Below, in pieces: positions 1,897-5,519 of a stretch of 5,683 nt of DNA. How positions within the stretch are numbered: position 1 is the first letter of the stretch; each line of letters opens with the position of its first letter. The position numbers and the translations under genes were made by a program. Source of the DNA: an uncultured Collinsella sp. Lineage in GTDB: Bacteria; Actinomycetota; Coriobacteriia; Coriobacteriales; Coriobacteriaceae. The DNA lies in the NCBI GenBank assembly GCA_938036665.1, contig CALHWR010000180.1, positions 1-5,683 of the forward strand, in the 5' to 3' direction. Under the pieces are notes generated by a model, which was not told the DNA's origin, searched no databases, and was given only the letters and a program-made list of their open reading frames with translations.

Positions 1897-1919
1897 ACAA
1901 AAAGGTACAGGTTTTTGTA
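1897..1919 (+). repeat. Left inverted-repeat arm of putative invertible promoter
   Basis: Bases 1905-1919 (GTACAGGTTTTTGTA) are the exact reverse complement of 2012-2026. Extending outward to 1901 and 2030 gives 18 of 19 complementary positions, with the single mismatch at 1904/2027. The arm is itself a dyad: ACAAAAA (1897-1903) and TTTTTGT (1912-1918) flank the 8-base centre GGTACAGG. Two inverted half-sites around a 6-8 base centre is the usual shape of a tyrosine-recombinase crossover site. Confidence 0.8.
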
Positions 1920-1932
1920 GAGGGGTATGGAG

Positions 1933-1953
1933 ATGTACCTACTAGCAGTACAT
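1933..1953. promoter_or_regulatory. Candidate operator dyad upstream of the operon promoter
   Basis: ATGTAC (1933-1938) and GTACAT (1948-1953) are perfect inverted half-sites with 9 bases between them. They sit about 49-69 bases upstream of the predicted start, a position suited to an activator. The extended half TGTACCT (1934-1940) is the reverse complement of AGGTACA inside the left arm (1903-1909), so the same binding motif may recur. No regulator is identified, and short dyads also arise by chance. Confidence 0.35.
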
Positions 1954-1964
1954 TTTGCGTAATC

Positions 1965-1995
1965 TGGGCAAACGCTGATTAATTGCTCGTATAAT
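1965..1995 (+). promoter_or_regulatory. Promoter for loaP and the polysaccharide operon
   Basis: The -10 box TATAAT (1990-1995) is a perfect match to the sigma-70/SigA consensus. The best -35 candidate is TGGGCA (1965-1970), 4 of 6 to TTGACA, but with a long 19-base spacer. No extended -10 TG is present. The weak -35 suggests that an activator may be needed. Transcription would start near 2002, giving a leader of about 120 bases before loaP. No comparable promoter was seen on the opposite strand of the segment. Confidence 0.65.
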
Positions 1996-2011
1996 GTCGT
2001 CTGTCGAAAGA

Positions 2012-2034
2012 TACAAAAACCTGTACTTTTGCGA
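2012..2034 (-). repeat. Right inverted-repeat arm of putative invertible promoter
   Basis: Bases 2012-2026 are the exact reverse complement of the left arm core 1905-1919, and the match runs to 2030 with one mismatch (2027). The inner half-site ACAAAAA (2013-2019) is identical to that of the left arm when inverted. The outer half (from 2028) is degenerate. Such an asymmetry between inner and outer half-sites is tolerated in known invertase sites. The arm starts 16 bases after the TATAAT box and falls in the transcribed leader. Confidence 0.75.
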
Positions 2035-2794: not shown

Positions 2795-3547
2795 GTGGCT
2801 GCTAATAAAGAAGTGACAGAGAGCAATGCGCCCGCGGGGGCAGCGCTGATTGCTCAGGCTATGGACCAGCGTGAATGCACCGGTCGATATAAGGCTGTGC
2901 AATCCATCATGGACTGGGACAACTCGCGCCTGGCCTACCGTGCCGTCAAGCGCGCGTTCGACATCGTGTTCAGCGGCTGCGTGCTGGCCGTCATTGCCGT
3001 GCCGAGTCTGGTGCTTGCCGCGGCAATCCGCCTGGAGAGCGAGGGCAACCCGTTCTACAGTCAAATTCGCGTGGGCCAGACCCACCGCGACGGCAGCCTG
3101 TCCACCTTCCGCATGTGGAAGTTCCGCAGCATGTACAGGGACGCCGACGAGCGCCTCGCCGAGCTCAAGGGGCAGAACGAGATCGCCGGCGCCATGTTCA
3201 AGATGAGGGAGGACCCCCGCGTCACCAAGATCGGCAGGTTCATCCGCAAGCATTCCATCGACGAGTTTCCGCAGTTCGTCAACGTGTTCCTGGGGCAGAT
3301 GTCCGTCGTGGGCCCGCGCCCGCCGCTGCCTAACGAGGTGGCCGAGTACACAGAATTCGACCTGCAGCGTCTGGCCGTCAAGCCCGGCATCACCGGCTGG
3401 TGGCAGGTGACCGACCGCAATTCAACGGGTTTCGACGGAATGGTCCAGCGCGACCTTGAGTACATAGCCAAGCGCGGCGTCATCACGGATCTCAAGATCG
3501 TTCTACTCACTGTCGTCGAGGTAATTACGGGAAGCGGGGCGTGCTAG
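2795..3547 (+). CDS. Initiating sugar transferase (bacterial sugar transferase family, WbaP/WcaJ-type catalytic domain)
   Basis: This 250-residue monotopic membrane phosphoglycosyl transferase should transfer a sugar-1-phosphate from a UDP-sugar to undecaprenyl phosphate, the first step of repeat-unit assembly on the inner face of the membrane. After a hydrophilic N-terminus of about 50 residues comes the family start VKRAFDIVFS (51-60) and a hydrophobic re-entrant helix (58-80) with the kink proline P70. Then come KFRSMYRDAD (109-118), MREDPRVTKIGRFIRK (137-152), the Asp-Glu catalytic pair D156-E157 in SIDEFPQ, VGPRPP (172-177), KPGITGWWQV (196-205) and D220. The four-helix N-terminal region of full-length WbaP/WcaJ is absent. 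The sugar donor cannot be read from the sequence. The start is GTG at 2795 with a weak, distant ribosome binding site; ATG at 2861 or 2909 would also keep the whole catalytic domain. The stop overlaps the next gene by 7 bases, implying translational coupling. Confidence 0.93.
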   Translation: MAANKEVTESNAPAGAALIAQAMDQRECTGRYKAVQSIMDWDNSRLAYRAVKRAFDIVFSGCVLAVIAVPSLVLAAAIRLESEGNPFYSQIRVGQTHRDGSLSTFRMWKFRSMYRDADERLAELKGQNEIAGAMFKMREDPRVTKIGRFIRKHSIDEFPQFVNVFLGQMSVVGPRPPLPNEVAEYTEFDLQRLAVKPGITGWWQVTDRNSTGFDGMVQRDLEYIAKRGVITDLKIVLLTVVEVITGSGAC

Positions 3548-4299
3548 TGTCAGCCGGCAATCGTTATCCAATTCTGAACACGTATGTAAACGCCATCTCG
3601 CTTGACGAGACGGTGGATGAAATCGAGAAGATCATCGCGAGGGGCGTTCCGACCCAGCATGTCGTAATCAACGCCTCCAAGGTCAACCTGATGGAGGCGG
3701 ATCCCGAGCTCGCGTCAATCGTCAACGAATGCCCCCTGATCAACGCCGACGGCGCCTCGATCGTCTGGGCGGCGAAAAAGCTGGGGGTTCCTCTCGGGGA
3801 ACGCGTCACGGGCATCGACCTGTTCCAGAGGCTTGTCGGGCTGGCGTCCGAGAAGGGCTACCGCATCTACCTCTTCGGGGCGAAGGAAGAGGTGGTCACC
3901 AAGGTCAAAGCGATTTTCGAGGACAGGTACCCGGGCATCCAGATCGCAGGGTATCGCAACGGCTACTTCACCGAGGCGGACGAGCCCCAGATCGTATCCG
4001 ATATGGCCGCCTCGGGAGCCGACATGATGTTCGTCGCTTTCTCCTCTCCCAAGAAAGAGTACTGGGTCCACAAGTACATCGACCAGATCGGAATCCCCTT
4101 CGTCATGGGCGTCGGCGGCAGCTTCGATGTTGTTGCCGGCGTAACCGACCGAGCTCCGACGTGGATGCAGAAGCACGGCCTGGAGTGGCTCTACCGCTTC
4201 ATCCAGGAGCCCGGAAGGCTGTGGAAACGCTACATCATCGGCAACCTAAAATTCGTCGCCCTCACGTATAAATACAAGTTCGCTAAGAAAGGTGAATAG
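3541..4299 (+). CDS. wecG: WecG/TagA/CpsF-family glycosyltransferase (GT26)
   Basis: This 252-residue peripheral membrane glycosyltransferase should add the second sugar to the undecaprenyl-linked primer. TagA uses UDP-ManNAc and WecG uses UDP-ManNAcA. Visible motifs are NADGASIVWAA (68-78), whose Asp70 matches the proposed catalytic Asp of TagA, VTGIDLF (89-95), the YLFGAKEEVV stretch (110-119), FSSPKKEYW (167-175), GVGGSFDVVAG (190-200) and the C-terminal appendage RAPTWMQKHGLEWLYR (204-219) with EPGRLWKRY (223-231). This appendage is membrane-targeting in the family and completes the active site. Because the operon also encodes enzymes for UDP-ManNAcA, a ManNAcA (WecG-like) or ManNAc (TagA-like) donor is likely; the sequence alone does not decide. 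GTG at 3541 overlaps the stop of the upstream gene; GTG at 3547 is an equal alternative. It ends 2 bases before the dehydrogenase gene. Confidence 0.93.
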   Translation: MLVSAGNRYPILNTYVNAISLDETVDEIEKIIARGVPTQHVVINASKVNLMEADPELASIVNECPLINADGASIVWAAKKLGVPLGERVTGIDLFQRLVGLASEKGYRIYLFGAKEEVVTKVKAIFEDRYPGIQIAGYRNGYFTEADEPQIVSDMAASGADMMFVAFSSPKKEYWVHKYIDQIGIPFVMGVGGSFDVVAGVTDRAPTWMQKHGLEWLYRFIQEPGRLWKRYIIGNLKFVALTYKYKFAKKGE

Positions 4300-4301
4300 C
4301 A

Positions 4302-5519
4302 ATGGTTAACGTTATCGGTCTCGGCTACATCGGCCTGCCCACCGCCCTCATGATGGCATCCCACGGCGTGGAGGTCGTGGGCACGGATTACAACGAGGAG
4401 CTCGTCGCCACGCTCAACGCCGGCAAGACTACCTTCAAGGAGGAGGGCCTGGACGAGCTGTTCGCCGACGCCCTGAAGTCCGGAATCAAGTTCTCCACCG
4501 ACTACCAGGTCTGCGACACCTACATCGTCTCGGTCCCCACTCCCTACGACAAGCTAGACAAGAAGATCGACCCCTGCTACGTCGTGGCGGCCTGCAAGAC
4601 CGTCCTCGAGGTCGCGCCCGAGGGCGCCGTGCTCGTAGTCGAGTCCACCGTCTCGCCCAACACCATCGACCGCTTCGTTCGCCCGCTACTCATAGAGGCC
4701 GGCCGCGAGGACGTCAGGCTCGTCCACGCCCCCGAGCGCATCATCCCGGGCAACATGGTCTACGAGCTGCTGCACAACAACCGCACCATCGGCGCCGACG
4801 ACCCCGAGGTGGGCGAGGCCGTGGCGAAGGTCTACGCCAGCTTCTGCCAGGGCGAGATCTCCGTCACCGACATCCGCACCGCCGAGATGACCAAGGTCGT
4901 CGAGAACACCTTCCGCGCGGTGAACATCGCCTTCTCCAACGAGCTCGCCAAGATCTGCCGCATCGGCGGCATGGACGTCGCCGAGGTCATCCGCATCGCC
5001 AACAAGCACCCGCGCGTGAACATCCTCAACCCCGGCCCGGGCGTCGGCGGCCACTGCATCCCGGTCGACCCGTGGTTCCTGGTCGGCGACTACCCCGAGA
5101 CGGCCAACTTTATCCGCCTCGCCCTTCAGACCAACGCCTCCATGCCCGAGTACGTCATGCACCGGGCCCATGAGGTCATGGCGGAGCGCGGCATCGCTGA
5201 CGCCTCCAAGGTCGGCATCTACGGCCTCACCTACAAGGAGAACGTCGACGACGTCCGCGAGTCCCCGACGCTGCAGATGCTCGAGTCCATGTCCGAGCAC
5301 CTCTGCGCGGGCTCCGTCAAGGTCTACGACCCGTGGGTCGAGCGCGACGAGGTTCCCGGCCAGGTCCATTCCATGGAGGAGTTCCTGGACGGTCTGGAGA
5401 TGGTGATCGTGATGGTCGGCCACTCCCAGGTCACGGACAACCCCGGCATCTTCGGAGAGCGCGTCCTCATCGACCCGCGCAACGTCTGCGGCGACGGAGA
5501 GAACGTCTACAAGCTGTAA
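4302..5519 (+). CDS. wecC: UDP-N-acetyl-D-mannosaminuronate dehydrogenase (UDP-ManNAc 6-dehydrogenase)
   Basis: This cytoplasmic NAD-dependent enzyme oxidises UDP-ManNAc twice at C6 to give UDP-ManNAcA. The 405-residue product has the usual length and three-part layout of the UDP-sugar dehydrogenase family. The Rossmann fold has GLGYIG (6-11) and D29 for NAD, then VSVPTP (76-81) and ESTVSP (114-119). The middle domain has [11 protein letters not shown] (142-152), [20 protein letters not shown] (192-211, with the family Lys197) and [13 protein letters not shown] (233-245). The catalytic Cys252 lies in [13 protein letters not shown]. The C-terminal domain has [16 protein letters not shown] (307-322) and MVGHSQ (371-376). 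HPRVNIL followed by PGPGVGGHC, and RTAEM with ENTFR, agree closely with E. coli WecC rather than with UDP-glucose dehydrogenase. ATG at 4302 has the ribosome binding site AGGTGA at 4290-4295. It lies 2 bases after the previous stop and 29 bases before wecB. Confidence 0.95.

Follow-up and report, generated by a model that had tools for sequence, protein, structure and literature searches.

Invertible capsule promoters are best known from Bacteroides, in which the serine invertase Mpi flips them. The sites of small serine recombinases are laid out as an imperfect dyad around a central dinucleotide, and those of the Hin/Gin/Pin family are 26-bp hix-type sites; the sites of tyrosine recombinases, the class to which RecV belongs, have a 6–8 bp spacer. 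Collinsella is a common genus of the human gut. UpxY has an antiterminator role in the capsule operons of Bacteroides (available part of PMC7819879), and the activity of LoaP depends on a UNCG-type leader hairpin (available part of PMC12691694). No Collinsella or Coriobacteriales switch is described among the matches listed in the open-access literature, as far as these are accessible in a literature that misses most subscription papers and possibly surveys listing such loci, and none is described in the available parts of PMC12691694, PMC10939037 and PMC7819879.

Here we describe a 92-bp segment of Collinsella DNA that very probably is an invertible promoter, switching a LoaP-like/polysaccharide operon ON (the form in the window, that is, the whole stretch of 5,683 nt from the C. 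aerofaciens group that was analysed) and OFF. Its inversion is probably catalysed by a small serine recombinase whose gene lies elsewhere. The preliminary description had drawn a parallel to the Bacteroides capsule switches, which held as a functional likeness and failed as family membership. As in Bacteroides, a promoter lies between short inverted repeats before a surface-polysaccharide operon that starts with a NusG paralogue, and a small serine recombinase (here a candidate) is encoded away from its target. Unlike Bacteroides, Collinsella belongs to the phylum Actinomycetota and has one arm pair per genome (13 genomes) rather than many. Its NusG paralogue scores 20.5 bits against the 100-bit cut-off of the UpxY model (NCBIfam NF033644), and its recombinase 39.1 bits against the 272-bit cut-off of the Mpi model (NCBIfam NF009949), the linked homologue in L163 reaching 50.4 bits. 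The cwpV, flagellar and cmr switches of Clostridioides difficile, also a Gram-positive gut bacterium, are likewise phase-variable inversions upstream of surface or regulatory genes, but the flagellar switch is inverted by RecV, according to the parts of that literature available to us. The same solution, namely a likely serine invertase, a flipping promoter, a NusG-paralogue antiterminator and a polysaccharide operon, would thus exist in the Actinomycetota with different recombinase and antiterminator families.

Inverted repeats frame a predicted promoter

The switch in the window is preceded by thrS, encoding threonyl-tRNA synthetase (29–1792, + strand; Pfam tRNA-synt_2b, HGTP_anticodon and tRNA_SAD), and followed by the loaP-like gene and the genes of an initiating sugar transferase, a WecG/TagA-type transferase and a nucleotide-sugar dehydrogenase. 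Both by direct reading and in a repeat search (pair I3), the left arm AAAGGTACAGGTTTTTGTA (1901–1919, + strand) pairs with the right arm (2012–2030, − strand) at 18 of 19 positions. The 15-base inverted repeats that had been reported within them are present, 1905–1919 and 2012–2026 being reverse complements at 15 of 15 positions, and they enclose 92 nt (1920–2011). A chance origin, previously considered very unlikely, found no support: the top ungapped inverted-repeat score in the 328-bp intergenic region (1793–2120) was 16, which was matched by none of 1500 dinucleotide shuffles (shuffle maximum 12).

The perfect TATAAT described between the arms as facing the operon lies at 1990–1995 on the + strand, directed toward the loaP-like gene. 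The same alignment column reads TATAAT in 16 of 17 aligned loci and TATAAA in the remaining one. A consensus scan of 1780–2800 returned no sigma-70-type promoter site, so the promoter call is based on the −10 box; we predict a likely promoter from this box, its conservation and its flipping together with the segment. The interval between thrS and the switch (1809–1890) contains the terminators that had been placed to the left, in the form of two terminator-like T-run hairpins, I6 (1809–1853) and I19 (1862–1890), with a terminator-like site at 1833–1846. As I19 has an A-run before its stem and a T-run after it, it could terminate in both directions and, in the OFF form, could stop the promoter's transcript.

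Related genomes carry the segment in both orientations

Relatives were found via the loaP-like protein in species-representative genomes, which yielded 15 loci, all from Collinsella and 90–96% identical; 13 of the loci L001–L015 are also the genomes G001–G013, so that the two sets overlap. Nineteen loci were parsed for arms, namely the window, 14 of L001–L015, and those of G014, G015, G017 and G027. Thirteen of them, the window included, are ON and six are OFF (L001, L005, L009, L014, L122 and L125). The inverted form foreseen for related genomes was therefore found in 6 of the 18 related loci with both arms readable, the other 12 having the form of the window, and the earlier assignment of the window to the ON form agrees with the direction of its TATAAT. 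L120, to which the parsing script gave no label, is ON by eye, and L139 (G017) is ON and carries an insertion. BLAST pieces in 43 genomes of the genus gave the same orientations and added G024 as OFF. Left out of the 19 rows were G024, the arms of which are decayed, and the ON-type L010, the contig of which begins beside the segment, in an insertion. Three further genomes are represented by fragments, with a left-arm junction that by eye is ON-type in G016 and OFF-type in G033, and with none in G034.

Near-identical segments were found in opposite orientations. The window (ON) and the OFF segment of L122 (G015) differ at 1 of 92 positions, as do the segments of L005 (OFF) and L007 (ON), two loci that look identical by eye from the thrS end to the left arm. 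The left-arm junctions of the two orientations read GTACAGGTTTTTGTA-GAGG and GTACAGGTTTTTGTA-TCTTT. In a loaP-region tree of 20 rows (L010 taken as ON), orientation requires 5 changes, compared with a mean of 5.3–5.4 for shuffled labels, and the well-supported branches force at least 4. Orientation is therefore not tied to lineage, the pattern that a fast switch would give, in a comparison to which six OFF rows lend little power. Judged by sequence comparison, the segment is inverted between genomes; we regard it as very probably a real invertible promoter, which would flip within a strain and drive transcription according to its orientation.

The arms could instead be a static dyad, for example the operator pair of a regulator, and the opposite orientations old and rare inversions. 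An operator, too, would be conserved and resemble a palindrome, as the arms do, and all orientation comparisons were made between different genomes. However, segments differing at 1 of 92 positions are oppositely oriented, orientation is distributed over the loaP-region tree much as shuffled labels are, and three more pairs of linked loci (see below) are clearly opposite; together these argue for frequent inversion, and we consider a static dyad very unlikely. It is scarcely credible that the inverted forms are assembly artefacts caused by random path choice around a short inverted repeat. One contig does end at an arm (G034) and another starts inside the segment (G033), but OFF forms also lie inside contigs of 2.2–2.3 Mb (G015 and G027), and arms of 15–19 bp, being shorter than a read, should not confuse the orientation unless both orientations exist. 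The two contig boundaries are at most a hint that one population contains both orientations.

The exchange maps within the arms

The arms, which the proposed inversion had implied to be conserved among close relatives, have a mean pairwise identity of 98.1% in 17 loci, versus 80.8% for the segment (the 19 rows less L125, with a segment of 93 bp, and L139, with its insertion). An arm variant, GTACAGGTTTTTATA, which has a G-to-A change at the 13th arm base, adjoins the same segment end in 5 of the 5 genomes having it: it is the left arm in L002, L138 and L139 (ON) and the right arm in L009 and L122 (OFF). Immediately outside GTAC, the left and right sides have different bases, and these remain with their flanks in 19 of 19 rows. 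As the variant base moves with the segment and the outer bases stay with the flanks, the crossover falls inside the arm interval GTACAGGTTTTT. Across 63 distinct sites, the best dyad centre is the dinucleotide AC/AG, with 6.1 of 8 pairs (next best 3.7), which is how sites of small serine recombinases are laid out; the score is partly built in, the AAA/TTT flanks having been part of the motif searched for. The two sites in the window conform less well, with 6 and 4 of 8 pairs by eye. The proposed 2-bp crossover would be AC at 1907–1908 in the left arm and the dinucleotide at 2023–2024 in the right arm.

In G024 (L128, about 1380–1660), only the first codons of the loaP-like gene are left, and several changes have eroded the two arms. 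The switch in this genome appears dead, in the OFF form, and this single case suggests that the arms are kept by selection only while there is an operon to control.

Insertions at nearly the same spot, between the left arm and the promoter, were seen in L139 (G017), L117/L138 (G009) and L129 (G016). That of G017 is about 280 bp long and is accompanied by a 15-bp duplication; sequence of this kind is also found at the end of the G016 contig. These insertions look like mobile-element remnants.

At up to 2 mismatches, each of 13 genomes has one arm pair, the two arms of G009 being on different contigs. The other copies are scattered single matches, and a multi-site regulon was rejected.

A candidate recombinase is encoded elsewhere

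The likely flipping enzyme is a small serine recombinase, the gene of which lies at another place in the chromosome. All 13 switch genomes examined encode one small PF00239 protein of about 200 aa, which in G005 is interrupted by the end of a contig. It scores 105.1 bits (cut-off 23.3), and a PF00239 domain followed by a short C-terminal DNA-binding part, where HTH_29 matches at 19.9 bits and thus under its cut-off of 28.1, places it among the small serine recombinases; residues 2–197 of 199 match the PHROG 'DNA invertase' (E 8.9e-53). An orthologue with at least 87% identity is present in 21 of 21 genomes of the genus with switch DNA, which include the fragments and the decayed G024 (and, in G005, an orthologue in two contig pieces of 87% and 97%), and in 0 of 22 genomes without it. 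This co-occurrence is confounded with descent, namely that of the C. aerofaciens lineage. Six of the 22 genomes without this switch have homologues at 59–69%, some of which adjoin switches of their own. In G015, recombinase and switch are about 632 kb apart on one 2.3-Mb contig. In G001 the recombinase gene adjoins a gene for an RNase R-like protein (RNB, S1), and two places further on is a gene of the ArsC family; the copy in L098 lies at 3661–4260 on the minus strand.

The candidate shares with Hin, Gin and Pin that it is a small PF00239 recombinase with a match to the PHROG DNA invertase, and its putative sites, like theirs, would be imperfect dyads around a 2-bp core in inverted orientation. 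It differs from them in its closest solved relatives, 2r0q and gamma-delta resolvase, which come ahead of the DNA-invertase entries 3uj3 and 4m6f; 2r0q is labelled Tn552 DNA-invertase bin3, and we take it to be Sin.

Alternatively, the segment could invert via an Xer-type or other tyrosine recombinase, the serine recombinase being merely a lineage marker. All 13 switch genomes encode two strong PF00589 proteins, and serine recombinase and switch could co-occur by descent alone. Yet the dyad is centred on a dinucleotide and not on a 6–8 bp spacer, and sites matching it follow serine recombinase genes in 27 of 90 loci, albeit loci chosen for the serine gene. Moreover, the remaining tyrosine recombinases are patchy, and one encoded upstream of thrS (L003 and L014) is missing there in the OFF locus L001. 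On balance we hold a tyrosine recombinase to be unlikely, and a serine recombinase remains our candidate.

The tyrosine recombinase gene upstream of thrS, a phage-type integrase, was rejected as the flipper for its absence from that place in L001. Also rejected, as truncated and not universal, was a pair formed by an HTH gene and an integrase remnant in 8 of 13 genomes (L086–L093). In this pair, which is almost identical between genomes, a small HTH gene ends in TAG right before an N-terminally truncated integrase in the same frame; it is either a conserved remnant or a domesticated catalytic domain.

The operon under the switch and a model for its control

Downstream of the right arm, the predicted transcribed leader (2031–2120, + strand) has a conserved block followed by a hairpin before the start codon, as seen in the leaders of 20 loci. 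The first gene of the operon (2121–2711, + strand) encodes a NusG paralogue of 196 aa that matches NCBIfam antiterm_LoaP (E 1.1e-23) with 84.2 bits, below the 125-bit cut-off of this model (NF033641). The proteins of four relatives score 79.6–81.5 bits. For each protein, no other NCBIfam model scores higher than LoaP; falling short of the cut-off, the NusG paralogue is termed LoaP-like here.

Next come the polyprenyl-phosphate sugar transferase, the initiating enzyme (2795–3547, + strand; Pfam Bac_transf, E 1.2e-59), a WecG/TagA/CpsF glycosyltransferase (3541–4299, + strand; Pfam E 1.1e-62) and a nucleotide-sugar dehydrogenase of UDP-ManNAc type (4302–5519, + strand; Pfam UDPG_MGDP_dh domains, TIGR03026). 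These three genes within the window mark it as a predicted surface-polysaccharide operon. Further downstream, two relatives encode glycosyltransferases, a UDP-GlcNAc 2-epimerase, a pyruvyl transferase, Wzy_C (O-antigen ligase-type) and Polysacc_synt (polysaccharide-export-type) proteins, and the downstream gene content differs between their operons.

The loaP-like gene resembles loaP of Bacillus velezensis (dfn and mln operons) in that a NusG paralogue heads a long biosynthetic operon and a leader hairpin precedes the gene. Unlike Bacillus LoaP, the Collinsella protein scores under the curated cut-off, its gene is placed under a predicted invertible promoter, and the hairpin loop is UGNNU or UGUGC, not UNCG. 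The hairpin has the form CCCC..UUUGCG-UGNNU-CGCAAA..GGGG. Two compensatory pairs occur in 3 of 14 aligned sequences (14 of the 20 leaders were used), probably reflecting few events. A search of Rfam with the window and four relatives gave nothing near a gathering score (lowest E 0.35), and the fold of the whole leader is unremarkable (z −0.20). By analogy with the dfn hairpin, the target of Bacillus LoaP (PMC12691694), the leader hairpin could be what the antiterminator recognizes on the RNA; as its loop is other than UNCG, we offer this as no more than a suggestion.

A second hairpin, at 2765–2782 between loaP and the sugar transferase gene, is followed by a T-rich stretch and recurs by eye in 16 loci. 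It could be a terminator that is read through by the LoaP-like protein.

In the mechanism that we propose, the serine recombinase would act in trans, cutting the central dinucleotide of each arm and religating the segment in inverted form. With the segment ON, transcription would run rightwards across the leader and into the loaP-like gene, whose product, a LoaP-like antiterminator, would assist RNA polymerase along the long operon. With the segment OFF, transcripts would start toward the left and end at the terminators behind thrS. Such switching would let cells vary the polysaccharide on their surface.

Linked recombinase–site modules in the Coriobacteriales

Relatives of the recombinase provide evidence that is more independent than its co-occurrence with the switch. 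Homologues (E ≤ 1e-40) are present in 84 of 297 genomes of the order. The 116 homologue places comprise 21 with the C. aerofaciens orthologue and 95 others, from which 79 were fetched, 10 came from an earlier set and 6 were left out; the addition of G032:C49 brought the total to 90 neighbourhoods (80 fetched plus the 10). A strict motif was defined as an inverted pair AAA-N-core-N-TTT with a core like GTACAC, GTACAG or GTAGAC. Of the 90 loci, 27 have it no more than 600 bp beyond the stop codon of the recombinase gene and none has it on the upstream side; none of 18,000 shuffles produced it. The motif was first noticed in about eight of the 90 loci, which makes the downstream count partly non-independent and leaves the upstream control independent. 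The other 63 homologue loci have no strict motif. A LoaP-like match is found in 24 of the 90 pieces, in 16 of the 27 strict-motif loci and in 18 of the 36 with strict or looser sites. In the loci read in detail, L163/L189, L166, L188/L268 and L164, the recombinase gene comes first, then the sites, then a LoaP-like or NusG-like gene; L210 has a sugar transferase afterwards.

In L235 and L241, the arms contain AAAAGGTACAGGTTTT, the core arm sequence of the window, and lie 36–39 bp after the recombinase and ahead of a LoaP-like gene; the L235 recombinase is 64% identical to that of C. aerofaciens. The segments of these two loci align at 129 of 138 positions inverted versus 73 of 152 direct, those of L210/L211 at 121 of 126 versus 67 of 142, and those of L233/L163 at 108 of 115 versus 54 of 128. 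The right flanks of these oppositely oriented pairs are identical at 58–59 of 60 positions. In all, eight linked pairs were compared, of which three are clearly inverted, two align weakly better inverted and three have the same orientation.

Arm core types cluster on the recombinase tree, with 4 changes for GTAGA (shuffled mean 14.2) and 3 for GTACA (12.1); none of 500 shuffles was as low, in a data set that includes near-copies and has 57 of 101 rows in no group. The tree did not resolve the C. aerofaciens branch inside the GTACA-arm group, and a placement of its recombinase within that clade was abandoned for this lack of resolution. Its nearest relatives on the tree, L213 and L215, are both without the motif.

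It seems fairly likely that an order-wide switch family exists in the Coriobacteriales. In it, a serine invertase would be paired, often side by side, with a promoter flipped at GTACAC-, GTACAG- or GTAGAC-cored sites, and this promoter would drive either secreted surface proteins or the LoaP-like antiterminators of polysaccharide operons. C. aerofaciens would have separated the two, so that one orphan invertase, encoded beside the RNase R-like gene, would act in trans on a single promoter at a distance of over 600 kb. With a concrete recombinase, the site motif and the many loci given here, phase variation of Collinsella and other Coriobacteriales surfaces becomes directly testable.

GTACA-type pairs spaced at 92–122 bp occur in 22 of 297 genomes of the order, 15 of them from the C. 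aerofaciens group. G043 has 13 such copies and G136 has 10. They looked like a regulon at first, a reading rejected because those inspected have mixed contexts and longer shared outer repeats. No homologue of the serine recombinase was found in either genome at the cut-offs used. The copies inspected (7 of 13 in G043, L312–L318; 3 of 10 in G136, L319–L321) are elements of about 110–120 bp with GTACA-type inverted ends and appear MITE-like.

Recombinases of the same family were also seen by eye to precede predicted secreted or surface proteins, a lipoprotein or another NusG paralogue (L161, L164, L165, L213, L215 and L325). In L161 and L165, recombinase and sites lie before predicted secreted proteins; that of L165 had no domain match in a profile search, and that of L161 has a sub-threshold match to PA14. 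The recombinase module may thus control several kinds of surface trait.
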